Assembly (NCBI GenBank): GCA_903901045.1
Contig: CAIUPP010000065.1
Location: 1-40,131, forward strand
Direction of reading: 5' to 3'
Source: an uncultured Planctomycetota bacterium
GTDB lineage: Bacteria > Planctomycetota > Brocadiia > CAIUPP01
Length of the DNA stretch: 40,131 bases
Shown here: piece after piece, positions 33,188 through 40,031 of the stretch
How the letters are laid out: every line of letters starts with the position of its first letter
How positions within the stretch are numbered: position 1 is the stretch's first letter
Notes under the pieces: model-generated
The model's database searches: none
The model's input: only the letters and a program-made list of their open reading frames with translations
Told to the model about the DNA's origin: nothing
Made by a program: the position numbers and the translations under genes

Positions 33188-33457
33188 ATGAGAGTCGAAA
33201 TCTTTCGTTTGACGGGCGAGCCGGTGAGCATCGAGGTGAAGGAAAACGGCACGGTGCGCGACGTGTTCAGCGCCGAGGGCTCCGGCAAGGTGCTGGGTCA
33301 TGACGGCACGCTGATGGAGGCGGCCGAGGAGCAGTACGGCTCGATCAGCCAACTCGGCACGCTGCGGGTCAACGGCGCCTCGGCGACGCTGGACACTCCC
33401 GTCCGGGCCGGCGCGACCATCCTCATCATCCCCAAGGTCGAGGGCGGTTGCCGCTGA
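33188..33457 (+). CDS. ubiquitin-like beta-grasp protein (MoaD/ThiS/Ubl type)
   Basis: The 89-residue product has beta-grasp order: a first hairpin (MRVEIFRLTGEPVSIEVKEN), a helix region (TVRDVFSAEGSGK), LRVNG (the typical loop of MoaD/ThiS proteins), LDTPVRAGATILIIPK and the C-terminal tail VEGG-CR. Gly86-Gly87 followed by Cys-Arg fits a precursor that a JAB protease trims to expose the di-glycine for adenylation by an E1. Both partners are encoded downstream. There is one Ubl domain, not two. ATG at 33188 has AAAGGAG upstream; an earlier in-frame TTG-type start lies inside the terminator and is rejected. A simple sulfur-carrier role is the main alternative, but the E2-like and JAB neighbours argue for protein conjugation. 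Confidence 0.85.
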   Translation: MRVEIFRLTGEPVSIEVKENGTVRDVFSAEGSGKVLGHDGTLMEAAEEQYGSISQLGTLRVNGASATLDTPVRAGATILIIPKVEGGCR

Positions 33458-33504: not shown

Positions 33505-33525
33505 CCTTCTTTCATGGAGGATACC

Positions 33526-34944
33526 ATGGCGATACCCGATATCCGCATCGACACGTGGCCCAAGCTGCTCCTCCCGCGTGAGGAGATCAAGGCCACGCTG
33601 CAGTACCTGGCGCATAAGACCGGCAAGCCGGTCAGCTTCCGATGGTTTACGGAGAATGAAGGATACTCCGACCAGTCTGTCAGCGTCCGAGTCTTCGTCA
33701 ATGACGACCTCGCCGCCACATACAACCCCAGTCACGTCATGATCAATGGACAGTCCTGCGCCGTGGCCTCCACGCAGCGCGGCATGGCCGCGGCCCTGGT
33801 CCGGGCGGACTGGAAGAAGATCGCCGATGACGAGGACCAGCTCATTGGCGCCGTTGATCACAATCGCATCATCCTCCCCCTGGAGATCACCGCTGCCGAC
33901 AATGAAGCGGCGCGGGCCATCCTAGCCTATGTGGTGGAGAAAGCCGTTGACCTCCTCGACTTTGATGTGGCCGACATGGTCAGAAAGCGCGAGGAGGATT
34001 TCGCCCGGCATTTTGGCGAGGCGTTCCGGAAGAGCATTACGACACGGCTGGAATCGAGGCAGGAGGAATTCGACACCCGCAAACGCGAGGCGGAGCAGGC
34101 GTATTACACCTTGGTTGACTTCGAGCGGGAGCGGTCGGTGTTCGAGCAGGAGCTCGCCTTCCTGACCGGCCTTGCGGAGAAGTCCTGCGCGAAGACGGCC
34201 CGCAAGCAGGTGCAGGCATTGCTCCAGGTCCAGAGCAGCGGGCAATACACGCACATCGCCTTCGACGGCGAGGGGGTCCTGCACGCAACCACCGCGCCGG
34301 TCACCATTGAGCACGAAGGTTATGAAATCCCTCTGGGCCGGTACGAGGTGGAAATCCCCTCCAACGGGGACGTGCGGATCAAAGCTCTTGACGAGCACCC
34401 CACCGCCGACCATCCACACCCGCACATTGCTCATGATCATCGGCCCTGCCTGGGAAACATCTCAGGCGATGTGGCCAAGCTCATCGGCAAGCTGCGATAC
34501 GCGGAAGTGCTGCAACTTCTTCATTCCTTCTTGTCCAGTTTTAATGCGGAAAACCCGTACGAACGTCTGGGCCACTTCGATCCCAGCGGTCAATACCAGG
34601 ACGAAGACGACGATCCCTGCGAGAGCTGTGACGAGAAATGCACGCCATATTGCGTCTTCTCTTGCGAGCACAATTCCGACATCTACACTTGCTCGGACTG
34701 TTGTGAATATCGCTCGGAATATTGCTTCACCGAGTGCGAGCACAACGCGGATTTTGAACGGTTCCATCCGTGCGAAAGCTGTGAGCGCAAAGGGACTCAG
34801 GAGTGCCACCTGGAATGCCTGCACAACAAGGAGTGGCAACTTCAGAATCCCTGTGACGAATGTGACGACGAGGAATGCCGCAAGGACGAATGCCCATGTT
34901 TCACGAAACGACAGGAGCTTGAACATGCAGAAGCACGATCGTGA
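33526..34944 (+). CDS. E2-like (UBC-fold) protein with helical segment and Cys-rich tandem repeats
   Basis: The 472-residue protein has four parts. Residues 1-140 are an unrecognised alpha/beta region. Residues 145-235 are charged helix, probably coiled coil. Residues 240-350 look like an E2 core: HPHIAHDHRPCLGNI matches the HPNI-x6-CLD block of E2 enzymes with exact spacing, His replacing Asn and Cys308 as the thioester cysteine, followed by EVLQLLHSFLSSFNAENPYE, as in E2 helix 2-3. Residues 365-458 hold three CX2CX7CX3CXHN repeats plus a degenerate fourth, probably zinc-binding. The whole suggests an E2 carrying its own E3-like or substrate-binding module. ATG at 33526 has GGAGG five bases upstream; the ATG at 33514 precedes that site. 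The JAB gene overlaps its end by 20 bases. Confidence 0.75.
   Translation: MAIPDIRIDTWPKLLLPREEIKATLQYLAHKTGKPVSFRWFTENEGYSDQSVSVRVFVNDDLAATYNPSHVMINGQSCAVASTQRGMAAALVRADWKKIADDEDQLIGAVDHNRIILPLEITAADNEAARAILAYVVEKAVDLLDFDVADMVRKREEDFARHFGEAFRKSITTRLESRQEEFDTRKREAEQAYYTLVDFERERSVFEQELAFLTGLAEKSCAKTARKQVQALLQVQSSGQYTHIAFDGEGVLHATTAPVTIEHEGYEIPLGRYEVEIPSNGDVRIKALDEHPTADHPHPHIAHDHRPCLGNISGDVAKLIGKLRYAEVLQLLHSFLSSFNAENPYERLGHFDPSGQYQDEDDDPCESCDEKCTPYCVFSCEHNSDIYTCSDCCEYRSEYCFTECEHNADFERFHPCESCERKGTQECHLECLHNKEWQLQNPCDECDDEECRKDECPCFTKRQELEHAEARS
34618..34899 (+). repeat. tandem Cys/His repeats inside the E2-like protein
   Basis: Three repeats start at Cys365, Cys389 and Cys416. Each has identical spacing CX2CX7CX3CXHN (for example C389, C392, C400, C404, H406), with linkers giving 24- and 27-residue periods. 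A fourth, CDECDDEECRKDECPC, keeps only the first CX2C. The spacing fits one metal site per repeat. It is not a canonical RING, which needs eight ligands in cross-brace order. Confidence 0.8.
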
Positions 34945-35719
34945 CGGCGATCTGCCATCCCGGAGCGAACCGGCGGTTGTCCTCGACATCCCGAGGAAAC
35001 CGCAATGGCCTGCCGGAATCTCGGTCTCAAAGTCTCACACTCTCAAATGCTTCGTCCCGGACGGCCTCCAGGTGGTTCTGACAAAGGAGGCCTTCGAGCA
35101 GCTCTTCGGCTATGCCTACGCCACAAACCGGGAGATCAGTTGCATGGGCGTCGTCCGGCGTCACGGCAGCGCCTTCATCGTGGAGCGGTTCCACCTGGTG
35201 GCCCAGGAAGGGGGAAGCGCGCATACGGAGATGGACCCCGTAGCGCTGGGCAGCCTCATCGAGACGCTCCTGGGGGAGGGGAAAGCCGACGAGGTCAGGG
35301 CGATCAAGTGCTGGGCGCACAGCCATCCCGGGATGGGCTGCTTCTGGTCGAAAACCGACGACGACACGTGCCGGCTCCTGGCGACCGACTTTCTGATCAG
35401 CCTGGTCGTCAGCGACGGCTTTGCCATTCGCGCCCGGCTTGACGTCGGCGGGCCGGTGCCGTTCACGGTGGACGAGGTGCCGGTGATCATGGAAATCCAA
35501 CCCGATGAGGAGGTATTGAAACGCTATGGCCAGGAGGTCGCGGAAAAGGTTAAGGAGGCGGTCGGTCTTCCGATGGGGAAAACGCCCCGTCCTGAGAACG
35601 CCGGCGGTTTGTTCGACGACGGTGTCTGGTCGGACTATTACGGACGCACGTACGGGTTTCTCGAAGAGGACGAGACCGCCGTGCTGGATGCTGTCGCGGA
35701 CGACCGAGAGCCCTTCTAG
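34925..35719 (+). CDS. JAB/JAMM (MPN+) metalloprotease
   Basis: The 264-residue protein carries the full JAMM zinc motif: Glu70 in NREISCMGVV and H132-S-H134 with PGMGCFW, Ser142 and Asp145 (HxH-x7-S-x2-D). Enzymes of this kind cleave ubiquitin-like proteins at the C-terminal di-glycine. Here it could remove the Cys-Arg tail of the upstream Ubl and release it from targets. A 35-residue N-terminal extension and an acidic C-terminus (EEDETAVLDAVADDREPF) flank the domain. ATG at 34925 overlaps the E2-like gene by 20 bases and has AGGAG nine bases upstream, so translation is coupled. The E1 gene begins 11 bases after its stop. It resembles the JAB of PRTRC cassettes as well. Confidence 0.9.
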   Translation: MQKHDRDGDLPSRSEPAVVLDIPRKPQWPAGISVSKSHTLKCFVPDGLQVVLTKEAFEQLFGYAYATNREISCMGVVRRHGSAFIVERFHLVAQEGGSAHTEMDPVALGSLIETLLGEGKADEVRAIKCWAHSHPGMGCFWSKTDDDTCRLLATDFLISLVVSDGFAIRARLDVGGPVPFTVDEVPVIMEIQPDEEVLKRYGQEVAEKVKEAVGLPMGKTPRPENAGGLFDDGVWSDYYGRTYGFLEEDETAVLDAVADDREPF

Positions 35720-35730
35720 GAGATGACGCC

Positions 35731-36390
35731 ATGACCGATACGGCCTCACGTTTTCTCCGGCAACTGGATATCCTGCCGCCGGAAAAGCTCACCTTTCCCA
35801 TCACCGTCATTGGCGCCGGGGCGGTCGGATCGGCCGCGGTGATCACGCTGGCGAAGATGGGCTGCACGAACCTCACCGTCTGGGACGACGACGTCCTGAC
35901 CGAGCACAACGTACCCAACCAGATGTGCGCCCTCGATGCGGTTGGATTCCCCAAGGTCGAAGCGCTGGCCACGCTCGTCATCGAGCTCACCGGCACGTCC
36001 ATCAAGACCCGCCGGGAGCGTTATCGAGGTCAGCGGTTGGACGGAGTTGTCATCGCCGCCACGGATAACATGCAGGCCCGTCTGGAGGTGTGGAAGCGCG
36101 CGAAGATGAACCGGTCCGTCCCGCTCCTCGTTGACGCCCGGATGGGCGCGGAGTTCGCCCGCGTCTACACAATACACCCCTCCAACCTCGACGAGGCGGA
36201 CTTCTACGAGTCGAACCTGCATCCCGAAGATGAAGCCGAACGCCTGCCGTGCTCAGCCCGGGCGATCATCTATTGCCCGGCGGTCATCGGGGGATTGATT
36301 GCCCTGCAGGTCAAGGCGCACGCTATGAGCCAGCCGCTTAAACGCGAAATGCTCTTCGACCTGCCGCGTCTGCAACTCATCACCCAGTGA
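35731..36390 (+). CDS. ThiF/MoeB/E1-like adenylyltransferase
   Basis: The 219-residue protein is a single adenylation domain: GAGAVGS (28-34), WDDDVLTEHN (51-60), AATDNMQARLEVWK (109-122) and a Cys-containing LPCSARAIIYCPAVIGG segment (Cys174 and Cys182). It would activate the Ubl C-terminus with ATP and pass it to a Cys. The usual SNxxRQ motif reads HNVPNQ, so the Arg is replaced by Asn. The CxxC zinc pairs of MoeB/ThiF are absent. The short length means no separate catalytic-cysteine or ubiquitin-fold domain. GGAG precedes ATG at 35731, 11 bases after the JAB stop. It completes a Ubl-E2-JAB-E1 order, the same order as Bil operons. Confidence 0.9.
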   Translation: MTDTASRFLRQLDILPPEKLTFPITVIGAGAVGSAAVITLAKMGCTNLTVWDDDVLTEHNVPNQMCALDAVGFPKVEALATLVIELTGTSIKTRRERYRGQRLDGVVIAATDNMQARLEVWKRAKMNRSVPLLVDARMGAEFARVYTIHPSNLDEADFYESNLHPEDEAERLPCSARAIIYCPAVIGGLIALQVKAHAMSQPLKREMLFDLPRLQLITQ

Positions 36391-36581: not shown

Positions 36582-37187
36582 GTGCAAGACGAAATAAAGG
36601 CCCGTCTCATCGTGGCGCTGGTGAAATTCGTGGTGATCATGGGTCTCTTAGCCGGGGCCGGCTACTACATTTACCACGCCATTCGCACGCCGCCCAAACC
36701 CACCACGAAGGAGGTTATTGAGGTGATTCGTTCCGAGGAATTATCGTTCCTGGTGACCGACCGGTTGGTTACCAAAGCGGTGGTCGAGTCGAAGGAAAAC
36801 AATCTGTTTCTCGGCGCCCGGGAAGGTTACTTGCTTGCCACCGTCCGCGTCTACTTTGGCATCGATCTCAAGAGCCTGCCCGAGGACGCCGTGCAGGTCA
36901 CCGATGGCATCATATATGTCGTGGTGCCGGAGCCGCGCGAATTGGATTTCAGCGTGGACCTGGATTCGGCGCGCTTTCTCTCGAAGCGCTCCGGGCTGGT
37001 CGTCCTGCGGGATTTCCTCCAAGACCTGAATTTCCAGCAGGAACTTGAGCGCCAGCTTCACCATGCCGCTCAGGAGATGCTGCGTAATGAGAAACTCTTG
37101 CCAGGCCGGGAGGAGATCGTCAAGCGGCTGAACGGATGGGCGCCGGCTCTGAGCAGCCGGTGCAACATGAAGGTCATTTTTCGTTAG
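36582..37187 (+). CDS. DUF4230 membrane-anchored protein
   Basis: The 201-residue product has an N-terminal membrane anchor (ALVKFVVIMGLLAGAGYYIYH, about 11-31) and a DUF4230 domain (about 45-185: SEELSFLVTDRLVTKAVVES, GYLLATVRVYFGIDLKSL, RELDFSVDLDSARFLSKRSG). DUF4230 has no known reaction; the soluble part probably faces outwards. Start is GTG at 36582 with AAGGAG seven bases upstream, directly after the small peptide stop. It lies downstream of the E1 gene and is co-directional, so it may be an effector, target or anchor of the Ubl system, or an unrelated island gene. It converges on the repressor gene 25 bases away. Confidence 0.8.
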   Translation: MQDEIKARLIVALVKFVVIMGLLAGAGYYIYHAIRTPPKPTTKEVIEVIRSEELSFLVTDRLVTKAVVESKENNLFLGAREGYLLATVRVYFGIDLKSLPEDAVQVTDGIIYVVVPEPRELDFSVDLDSARFLSKRSGLVVLRDFLQDLNFQQELERQLHHAAQEMLRNEKLLPGREEIVKRLNGWAPALSSRCNMKVIFR

Positions 37188-37212
37188 CAGTGGGGCCACG
37201 CGTGTGGAGTGG

Positions 37213-37872
37213 TCACATCGCCCGCCAGACCAGGCCGAGGACCTGCCCGACTTCCTCCACATGGCCGCGGATCGCAGCGCCATCGTCCAGTCGGACAAAC
37301 GCGCCTCGGGGCGTGCGCCGGGCCAGCACAAGCTCCCCGGCTTCTTTTCCCTTCGTGGAATGCCGAAGCACAACGATCTGATGAGACGTCGGTTTCGCCT
37401 TCTGGTCCATCAGGAGCAAATCACCCCGGCGCAGCAACATTGCCGGCGCGTCGAAAGAAAGCTCCAGCACGTACGGCAGAGTGGCCTCGGCCAGCAGCGG
37501 CACCGCATGTCCAGCGACCTCCGTACCGTATCCCGTGCGCGCCGGCGACTGAGCCGGATCGCCCAGGCACGGTTCTGAGAGGGTATGCTTCAGGGACGGA
37601 GGGATTTCGGGCCCGGCGAGCGGCTTGGCCACTGTCCCTTCGCCATGAAGCAGCCAACGGGAGTTGACGCCGAACTCGTCAGAGAACCGCCGCGCAAACA
37701 GTTCGGACAGAAGCCTGTGGCCGTTCTTGACGTCGCTAAGGTACCCCTGTGGCACCGCAAGGCGCTCGGCAATCTCCAGTTGAGTGAGTCCCTTTCCGGT
37801 CAGGTCGTTCAACACCCGTATCAGCCGCTCCTGGCGCTGTTTGCGAACGACTTCTGGCGTTGGTTGGGGCAT
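37213..37872 (-). CDS. phage-type repressor: Cro/CI HTH plus S24-like domain lacking the serine
   Basis: The 219-residue protein has an N-terminal HTH (about 18-75: RLIRVLNDLTGKGLTQLEIA, ERLAVPQGYLSDVKNGHR) and a LexA/CI S24-like C-terminal domain (about 130-219: YVLELSFDAPAMLLRRGDLL, QIVVLRHS, GHVEEVGQVLGLVWR). In active S24 peptidases the segment before the RGD-like turn holds the catalytic Ser (often DSM); here it reads DAPAM, so self-cleavage is unlikely and release must use another route. ATG at 37872 is preceded by GAGAGG. It is divergent from the recombinase promoter at 37917, whose palindrome is its probable operator. It controls island excision or integration by inference. Confidence 0.82.
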   Translation of the reverse strand: MPQPTPEVVRKQRQERLIRVLNDLTGKGLTQLEIAERLAVPQGYLSDVKNGHRLLSELFARRFSDEFGVNSRWLLHGEGTVAKPLAGPEIPPSLKHTLSEPCLGDPAQSPARTGYGTEVAGHAVPLLAEATLPYVLELSFDAPAMLLRRGDLLLMDQKAKPTSHQIVVLRHSTKGKEAGELVLARRTPRGAFVRLDDGAAIRGHVEEVGQVLGLVWRAM

Positions 37873-37916
37873 ATCATGCCTCTCGAAAAAAAGTTTCCCA
37901 AAACCTCGAAATCCTC

Positions 37917-37945
37917 TTGACACTTACCGTAAAGGTAATTACAAT
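37917..37945 (+). promoter_or_regulatory. sigma70 promoter with palindromic operator in the spacer
   Basis: TTGACA (37917-37922), a 17-base spacer and TACAAT (37940-37945) form a near-consensus promoter reading into the recombinases. The spacer holds TTACC-GTAAA-GGTAA (37924-37938), an inverted repeat with 5-bp arms. A repressor bound there would block polymerase directly. Confidence 0.82.
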
Positions 37946-38008
37946 TATCTTGACGGCATGGAACAGGGTAGCAAACTAGGACACTTTTTACAAGAGGAGG
38001 AGAGAAAC

Positions 38009-38358
38009 ATGGACGCTAGGAAACGCAGTTGCGTGCCGGTTGGCTATGTTCGTTGCTCGACACTGCGCCCCGGTCCGTTGGCCGAGCATTGTTCGAATTG
38101 TGCAGCCGTGGAGTGCCTTTGCAGGTGCTGGTGACCGACATCGGCTGCACGGGCATGAGCGACCGCCCCGGTCTTCGCCATTTGGTCAAGGCGGCGGAAC
38201 GGGGTCTTGTGAGCGAGGTTGTCGCGATCTCCCCGTCGCGCCTGGCCCGCTCCCATGTCGAACTGGCGCGCCTGCTGCGTCGCTTCGACCAGTTAGGCGT
38301 CCGCGTCACGTTCGCCTCGCAAGCCGCCTCGGGCGCGAAAGCGCATATGGGAATCTAA
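38009..38358 (+). pseudogene. small serine recombinase N-terminal domain, frameshifted
   Basis: ATG at 38009, after AGGAGG, opens MDARKRSCVPVGYVRCST, where VGYVRCS is the start strand of serine recombinases with its catalytic Ser. That frame stops at 38134. The continuation lies in another frame from about 38060: ALFELCSRGVPLQVLVTDIG, MSDRPGLRHLVKAAERGLVS, VAISPSRLARSHVELARLLR, ending at 38358. Together they make one resolvase N-terminal domain of about 115 residues, split by an indel near 38060-38095. There is no DNA-binding domain. No slippery heptamer is evident, so a disabling mutation is more likely than programmed frameshifting. A sequencing error is also possible. Confidence 0.75.
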
Positions 38359-38391
38359 AGGCACGACAAGGTGGAGTTTTGGAGAGAAAAG

Positions 38392-38652
38392 ATGAAACAG
38401 AAAGAGGAAACGATCGGTACCGAAGTCCCCGCCGAAGGCGAGCCTCGGGGGGATGCTGAGGTGTACCAGAGCAGTTCCAGTTGCGCCGGCATCGGCTGGC
38501 TGTATTGGTCCGCGCCTGCTGAGGAACTCATCCGTCTCGCGTTACCCGTCATCCGCATAAACGTGGCGACGGAACTCCTCAAGCGACCGAACTCTTCCGT
38601 CCAACCCGGGCGCACCTCTAAGATCGTGACCTCACGGGGGGTGGTCACATGA
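38392..38652 (+). CDS. small hypothetical protein between recombinase genes
   Basis: The 86-residue product begins MKQKEETIGTEVPAEGEPRG and has an amphipathic helix-like middle (AEELIRLALPVIRINVATEL). There is no recognised domain. ATG at 38392 has GGAGAG six bases upstream. Its stop overlaps the ATG of the large recombinase by four bases (ATGA), so translation is coupled and it may be a recombination-directionality or accessory factor. That role is inferred from position only. Confidence 0.6.
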   Translation: MKQKEETIGTEVPAEGEPRGDAEVYQSSSSCAGIGWLYWSAPAEELIRLALPVIRINVATELLKRPNSSVQPGRTSKIVTSRGVVT

Positions 38653-40031
38653 ACGAACTCCCCAAGGGAGCGCGCGTTGCCATCTACCTGCGCTGCTCCA
38701 CCGACGAGCAGGAGTACTCCGTGGACGACCAGTTAGAGATGATAAACGACATCGTTACGGAGTTCTCCCTCGAGGTGGTCCGCACCTATACCGACGAGGG
38801 GGAATCGGGTGGAACTTTGGAAGAGCGCCCGGAGATAGCCGAGTTGCTCAAAGACGCGAAAGAAGGGCTCTTCGACTACGTGCTCGGTTACGATGTGTCG
38901 CGATTCAGCCGCGGCGGCAACACGGACCTCTGGTGGTTTGTCCGGGAACTGAAGAAACGTCGCGTGTTGGTCTACAGCTGCCAGCACCGCTCCACGATCA
39001 CCGAGGATGAGTCCGCGCGCTTCAGCAATGAGGCCAGCCAGGCGAGGGCGCACAACTACGACATGGCTCGTGACGTGGCACGCGCGATGATCCTCAACGT
39101 TACCAAACGCAACTGTGACCCCGGGCGTCGGGCCCCCTTCGGGTACGACCGATTGTACGTGGACGAGAACGGGGACCCGTATCAACAACTGCGCATGTTG
39201 CCCGACGGCAGAAGACAAATGCTCGACCCGAGGACAAAGCTCGTGCTGACCACCATTCCGGCGGGTGCACGAACCAACAAGATACGGACGCATCAGGTAC
39301 TTCTGACACCTGGCGACTCCCTGCGCGTGGCGACCGTGAAACGCATCTTTACCCTTGCGGTGACGATGTCGCCGACGTCGATTGCCGACGTGCTCAACCG
39401 CGAAGGCCTGGTCGGGCCGAAAGGTAAACGCTGGACGGCCAGTTCGATCCGCGAGATTCTGCGCAATGTGGCCTATATCGGCACGCGGCTCTTCAATCAC
39501 CGCCACACTTGCCGCTACTTCAAGATCGTCAAGGGGCGTCCCGTGGCGATAGGGTACCTCGACGAAGGCAAGGTCAATGTGAAGATTAATCCGCGCGAGG
39601 ATTGGATTGTTCTGGAAGATGCCCACGAGCCGCTCATCGAGAAGGAACTGTTCTACCGAGTGCAGGCGGCTATGGAGCAGCGGCGGTGTCGTTCTCTGGG
39701 GACACCACGCAGTAAGAAGAAAGTCTACCTGCTGAGTGGGCTGATCCAGTGCGAGCGCTGCGTGTCACCCATGACCGGCCATACCAAGACGTCCAGCAAG
39801 GCCAAGGGCAGCCGGGTGTACCCTGCTTATGCCTGTAGCGGGGCGAAGAAGCATGGGAAGAGCGTCTGCTCCTACTACAGTTTACCAGCCGAGCGGATGG
39901 AGGGCTTTGTGCTGTCTACGGTGCGGAAGGTTCTTTCCTCTCCGGCAGCGCTGGCGGCGTTGCGCGAGGGACTTGAACAGCAACTGGCCGATGCGGTGAA
40001 ATCCGGCCGGAGTCTAGAACCGGTTTCATAA
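38649..40031 (+). CDS. large serine recombinase, C-terminus probably truncated by an IS
   Basis: The 460-residue protein has a resolvase catalytic domain (about 8-150: RVAIYLRCSTDEQ with Ser17, YDVSRFSRGG), a recombinase domain (about 165-330: GRRAPFGYDRLYVD, WTASSIREILRNVAYIGTRL) and a zinc ribbon (about 365-415: LIQCERC..MTGH, YACSG, CSYY). The coiled-coil and C-terminal segment of large serine integrases normally extends well beyond this. Here it ends GRSLEPVS at 40031, six bases inside an IS5-like transposase end, so the natural C-terminus was probably lost. It would catalyse site-specific integration or excision of the island. It is translationally coupled to the upstream small gene and under the palindrome-bearing promoter. 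Confidence 0.88.
   Translation: MNELPKGARVAIYLRCSTDEQEYSVDDQLEMINDIVTEFSLEVVRTYTDEGESGGTLEERPEIAELLKDAKEGLFDYVLGYDVSRFSRGGNTDLWWFVRELKKRRVLVYSCQHRSTITEDESARFSNEASQARAHNYDMARDVARAMILNVTKRNCDPGRRAPFGYDRLYVDENGDPYQQLRMLPDGRRQMLDPRTKLVLTTIPAGARTNKIRTHQVLLTPGDSLRVATVKRIFTLAVTMSPTSIADVLNREGLVGPKGKRWTASSIREILRNVAYIGTRLFNHRHTCRYFKIVKGRPVAIGYLDEGKVNVKINPREDWIVLEDAHEPLIEKELFYRVQAAMEQRRCRSLGTPRSKKKVYLLSGLIQCERCVSPMTGHTKTSSKAKGSRVYPAYACSGAKKHGKSVCSYYSLPAERMEGFVLSTVRKVLSSPAALAALREGLEQQLADAVKSGRSLEPVS

Follow-up and report, generated by a model that had tools for sequence, protein, structure and literature searches.

Conjugation of ubiquitin-like proteins (Ubls) or of cGAS in bacteria is carried out by the Bil, Bub and type II CBASS (Cap2/Cap3) systems, which have E1, E2 and JAB parts. 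To our knowledge, most described bacterial Ubl systems have no identifiable E3. RING-type zinc domains were reportedly tied to prokaryotic E2/E1/JAB/Ubl systems by Burroughs et al. in 2011, in work that may already cover some of the E2-array fusions of the relatives described below. Operons 6a-6e, which join a Ubl, an E2-like protein, a JAB protein and an E1, were described by Iyer et al. (2006), who suggested that separate zinc-finger proteins of such operons might be E3-like adaptors; the text of that study names no planctomycete (PMC1779556). In the Caldiarchaeum operon, E1, E2, a small RING protein that works with the E2, and ubiquitin are encoded together, and the pro-ubiquitin is trimmed by the JAMM protease Rpn11 (PMC5654768). 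Ubl-E2-JAB-E1 operons have been known since 2006 (PMC1779556), and the locus reported here, in which an array of four C4 units is fused to the E2, is rated as a variant on that kind.

The window, meaning the whole stretch of DNA that was analysed (40,131 nucleotides of contig CAIUPP010000065.1, from an uncultured Planctomycetota bacterium), holds a tight operon in the order Ubl, E2, JAMM protease, E1, with the following features:

33188..33457, + strand: Ubl, 89 aa, beta-grasp, ThiS/MoaD-like, ending in ...IPKVEGG-CR (Pfam ThiS, E 3e-4, just under the cut-off)
33514..34944, + strand: E2-like protein, 476 aa, with N-terminal domain, helical arm, E2 core and Cys array (reading frame, paralogs, structure)
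33514..33948, + strand: N-terminal domain of the E2, residues 1-145, found in the window clade only and absent from relatives (pLDDT about 40-68; fold uncertain)
33949..34185, + strand: helical arm, residues 146-224 (predicted helices 152-179 and 187-222)
34183..34590, + strand: E2 core, residues 224-359 (VIA Z 7.7 to Ubc13, E2-25K; homology to the relatives' cores)
34618..34665 (with XHN to 34674), + strand: C4 unit 1, Cys 369, 372, 380 and 384 (motif; invariant in paralogs)
34690..34737 (with XHN to 34746), + strand: C4 unit 2, Cys 393, 396, 404 and 408 (motif; invariant in paralogs)
34771..34818 (with XHN to 34827), + strand: C4 unit 3, Cys 420, 423, 431 and 435 (motif; invariant in paralogs)
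34852..34893, + strand: C4 unit 4, CX2CX4CX4C, Cys 447, 450, 455 and 460 (invariant in three paralogs)
34925..35719, + strand: JAB/JAMM isopeptidase, 264 aa, with the complete JAMM motif HSHP-x6-S-x2-D (Pfam Prok-JAB, E 6.5e-4, under the cut-off)
35731..36390, + strand: E1-like ThiF-family adenylating enzyme, 219 aa (Pfam ThiF, E 2.2e-16)

The JAB and E2 genes share 20 bases. Searches with the window JAB in plasmids, in viral contigs and in the phylum sample gave no close relative. The same genome has three more copies of the E2 gene: C153 (79% identical), C60 (about 64-65%) and C12 (62%), a fragment that a contig end cuts before the array. The C153 and C60 loci have all four genes in unchanged order, and their Ubls end in VEGG-R and VEGG-AQ, so that the Gly-Gly is followed by a short tail as in the VEGG-CR of the window. 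The operon is followed, at 36582-40031, by genes for a DUF4230 protein, for serine recombinases (38029-38358 and 38649-40031) and, on the minus strand, for an HTH regulator (37213-37923). The C153 copy (L005) has the DUF4230, HTH and recombinase-like genes in common with the window, and the cassette may therefore be mobile. Three other ThiF-family proteins of the window genome (C108, C99, C121), two with frames of 537 residues and one with a frame of 329, perhaps belong to other E1 systems.

Compared with Bil, Bub and CBASS, the window locus is distinguished by its single-domain Ubl, its separate, short E1 and the fusion of its E2 to a Cys array. The Bil Ubl has two beta-grasp domains (PMC11354881), whereas the 89 residues of the window Ubl leave room for one. 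Type II CBASS Cap2 unites E2 and E1 in one protein, while in the window they are encoded by separate genes (33514-34944 and 35731-36390). The window E1 and the relatives' JAB resemble the PADLOC E1-E2 and JAB models, and PADLOC gave no match for the window E2. With the curated PRTRC profiles, the best that was obtained was 32.4 bits for PRTRC ThiF against a cut-off of 144.75, and nothing for the E2. In operons 6a-6e the metal-binding protein has a gene to itself and a different signature, in contrast to the array fused to the window E2; the E2s of type 6d lack a His before the Cys, and the window E2, which has HPH, is thus not of that type. The Caldiarchaeum operon is likewise compact and has a zinc-binding E3-like part (zinc being predicted for the window), but its RING, which has the canonical spacing, forms a protein of its own, whereas the window array is fused and follows CX2CX7CX3C.

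Judged from its modelled UBC fold and from HPH-x7-Cys312, the 476-residue protein is an E2. In the AlphaFold2 model, which was built on an alignment of 41 sequences, most blocks in residues 231-340 have pLDDT values of 86-95, with weaker blocks at 291-310. VIA-align superposed residues 224-359 on Ubc13 (5aiu_B) with 112 aligned residues, an rmsd of 3.4 and a Z of 7.7, a value which, being below 8, could on its own reflect a common arrangement. The E2 reading is nonetheless favored because the top rows are mostly of one fold (Ubc13, E2-25K, UBE2W, UbcH10, UbcH7, bacterial CdnG-E2 and Cap2 among them; Z 5.5-7.7) and because HPH-x7-Cys and the NPxxPY loop are placed as in E2s. The order along the core is HPH (302-304), seven residues, the predicted catalytic Cys312, LG, and then an NPENPY-like AENPY loop, and HPH-x7-Cys312 is kept in all three full-length copies (window, C153 and C60). 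Eukaryotic E2s have HPN-x7-Cys, with the same spacing, and their NPDDPL loop is resembled by the N-x-x-P-Y loop that follows the active-site helix of the window protein. The Asn of the HPN triad is replaced in the window E2, which has HPH. HPN is not universal among E2s, UBE2J and UBE2Q being without it (PMC10971424), and in our judgement the missing Asn does not count as defining for membership. An E2-like protein with a helical arm had been claimed by the sequence-only reading, and both parts of that description are borne out, the core following predicted helices and the array following the core. Helices precede the core also in the predicted structure of the relatives' E2s. A keratin match of the window E2 in the PDB was attributed to the coiled-coil arm, and a likeness of the N-terminal 145-residue domain (33514-33948) to HPF/dsRBD was set aside as weak and derived from a low-confidence model.

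The ThiS-like Ubl and the ThiF-like, minimal E1 would also suit a sulphur-carrier or cofactor pathway of the ThiS/MoaD kind, in which the E2-like fold would not conjugate. We regard such a pathway as quite improbable: the HPH-x7-Cys active site is retained in the E2, no rhodanese, thiamine or molybdopterin family was found in the neighboring genes that were scanned, and the E1 does not group with the MoeB/ThiF-type E1s found in the same genomes.

The CX2CX7CX3CXHN unit occurs exactly three times in the reading frame 33514-34944, at residues 369, 393 and 420 with periods of 24 and 27, precisely as had been read from the letters. When the Cys-rich tail was shuffled 200,000 times, one such unit arose in 28 shuffles and two in none, and for the looser CX2CX7CX3C three units arose in 5. 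Over the 4.77-Mb genome the full motif has 7 matches, none of them outside this gene and the two full-length paralogs; the reversed-pattern control has 0. A fourth repeat that had been described as fading is indeed present, but it is not fading: it forms a full C4 unit that is invariant in the three paralogs. The invariant Cys of the three full copies number exactly 16, spaced 2-7-3 / 2-7-3 / 2-7-3 / 2-4-4, and four further Cys positions differ among these copies. The earlier proposal of five metal ligands per repeat does not hold, as the His is not conserved. Both full-length paralogs have Tyr in place of the His of unit 3, and no such His is present in unit 4, so that the sites are read as C4 rather than as five-ligand sites; the likely ligands would be the four Cys of each unit, with metal binding itself predicted from their pattern. 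The metal is most likely zinc, although the sequence does not tell which metal it is.

Between copies, the Cys are mostly kept though synonymous sites have changed, Cys codons included; between the window and the C60 copy, 18 of 19 Cys are kept, 7 of them with a synonymous change. The array Cys thus look to be held under selection. It follows that a drifting extension without function, with which the divergence of the repeats from one another might be reconciled, is hardly credible: it is contradicted by the 16 invariant Cys and the synonymous changes in Cys codons, and all relatives bear a Cys array. Units of the same number are mostly closer between copies than are different units inside one copy, and the array is thus older than the gene copies. 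The spacing had been thought unlike that of RING, U-box or zinc-ribbon domains, and the searches agree, as neither Pfam nor NCBIfam gave a RING, U-box or other zinc family over the window array and no sequence match to it was found in the PDB. No relatives of the window array are detectable outside this genome, and in the AlphaFold2 model, for which three sequences cover this part, most of the array has a pLDDT below 50.

Relatives of the E2 itself were reached with profiles and motifs. Single-protein searches with the window E2 in genome contigs, plasmids and phages found nothing, and neither did a small alignment against viral contigs. A profile of the four copies retrieved one distant relative in a same-phylum sample (E < 1e-6), and a profile including that relative gave matches in 25 of the 298 genomes of its class (E < 1e-13). 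A broader profile matched 16 of the 392 phylum-sample genomes, in two cases through arrays without an E2, and a scan of 84,980 species with two E2-core motifs yielded 30 loci, nearly all carrying a Planctomycetota name. An E2 from one of these loci is identical to that of a genome classed in the window's phylum, by which the window genome, too, is placed in Planctomycetota. Three candidates (G012, G002, G047) were rejected as E2 relatives, since the proteins that bear their arrays are different ones and have no E2 core. The same-order four-gene operon is complete in 15 of the 20 relative loci examined, and several others are cut by contig ends. In Pfam and NCBIfam, the E2-array proteins of the family reach the cut-off of no model, and PADLOC gives no match for them either.

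These Planctomycetota cassettes share with the window the gene order, a homologous E2 core (hhalign probability 99, E 1.8e-18, between the cores of the two clades), the JAMM protein, an array after the core and E1s that group together. The window clade's E1s cluster with those of the relatives, apart from MoeB/ThiF and other E1s, with an SH-aLRT of 96, which is support rather than proof because of the long branches and because a profile of both served to select the rows. The relatives differ in having no N-terminal 145-aa domain, in an active site of the form HPH-x6-Cys (59/59 distinct E2s), as opposed to x7, and in their Ubls, which mostly end in KIEGA or KIDGA followed by 0-8 residues, where the window clade has VEGG (EGA against EGG). 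A Gly-Ala Ubl end, as in these relatives (L015-L097), is unusual. Clustering of the neighbors of about 34 loci placed a DUF2958 gene near the operon in 17, a gene for a 331-aa protein of unknown kind in 12 and one for an HSP90-like ATPase in 8 (L035-L064, L014), perhaps as parts of a larger mobile cassette. One complete genome of the phylum (G282) carries five E2-array genes (L075, L089, L094, L096, L097), and in one relative's E2 (L081) an in-frame stop lies within the array, making it a broken copy.

A C-terminal Cys array stands right after the E2 core in all 59 distinct relative E2s, even though one of the searches that supplied this set was made with E2-core motifs only. The view that E2s do not normally carry such arrays is therefore not supported for this operon family. 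Homologues keeping the operon without the Cys repeats had been named as the case that would count against a role for them; the relatives do have the operon and lack this repeat type, but they always have another array, never none. In the sequences sampled, the family invariably has an array after the core, and the type of array is clade-specific. The relatives' arrays run to about ten CxxC pairs (20-22 Cys) that recur every 14-15 residues, in contrast to the window units; the pairs number 8-12 in 58 E2s and 5 in one truncated copy. No homology between the arrays of the two clades is detectable (hhalign probability 0.2), and the window array may have replaced the other type or may have diverged past recognition. 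Large proteins with CxxC arrays of the relatives' type and no E2 core were also seen in other genomes of the class (L066, 616-2442; L067, 388-2088; L068, 457-1671).

In the relatives, ordered short strands are predicted for the array (pLDDT about 95); the VIA structure list for the relatives' model was discarded, being dominated by its long helices. The best PDB matches of the relatives' array profile are the MID1 B-box (E 3.2e-4), the TFIIH p44 zinc domain, FYVE and ZZ, and an ANCHR B-box match appeared in 4 of 22 arrays (E 0.013 at best), all of which are regarded as weak because composition accounts for part of the likeness between Cys-rich profiles and zinc domains. Domains of the B-box, TFIIH p44, FYVE and ZZ types are partly known from ubiquitin ligases. 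A RING-like or B-box-like function is not transferable to the window array, since the two have no detectable homology. C4 units could bind Fe as well as Zn, and the array might then be a metal or redox sensor that gates the E2, through a zinc thiolate switch or an iron-sulphur site. This appears improbable, as Pfam and NCBIfam gave no Fe-S family for the protein and the CxxC pairs of the relatives' arrays are B-box/FYVE-like, not ferredoxin-like.

The strongest competing explanation is that the array serves structure or assembly, since it occupies the place of the last helices of canonical E2s: it begins shortly after the NPxxPY loop, where these have helices 3 and 4. The array would then replace the missing helices, oligomerize the E2, or bind the E1 or the Ubl, with no E3-like action. 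In eukaryotic E1s a UFD domain recruits the E2, and the 219-aa window E1 is too short for one; with so minimal an E1, recruitment of the E2 must fall to another part, which together with an array that is never absent in the family agrees with such a role. Against it, the two clades fill the slot with array types that lack detectable homology, which a variable adaptor fits better, and a separate helical arm is already there for assembly. On balance, a purely structural array seems rather unlikely, though it is to be taken seriously.

We give about an even chance to the reading that the window protein is the E2 of a Ubl conjugation cassette whose fused four-C4 array works in cis, as a module that is E3-like or binds targets, and an E3-like or target-binding role is our best guess for the array. 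The slot is kept and the module varies, and the array would therefore be adaptor-like, as judged from the differing array types on homologous cores. That distant operons bear a different Cys-rich tail at this place suggests that the tail is a working part of the enzyme. In such a cassette, the JAMM protease would trim the Ubl to its GG end, and the E1, by homology, would adenylate the Ubl and hand it to Cys312 of the E2. The tethered array would act in cis to present the active site with a substrate or with the charged Ubl, and the JAMM protease would remove the Ubl again. More tentatively, the Planctomycetota might possess a one-chain E2-E3-like family in which the fused metal array selects targets, the lineage of the window having swapped in an unrelated zinc fold made of four C4 units of the CX2CX7CX3C kind.

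A fused Cys array on every E2 found makes a built-in ligase or adaptor in bacterial conjugation testable, with four small genes and point mutations. Arrays that are non-homologous, as far as can be detected, on homologous E2 cores amount to a natural domain swap with which the role of the array may be probed. If the array was indeed swapped in the lineage of the window, it would be a ligase module that a bacterium has built into its E2, and its zinc fold would be distinct.
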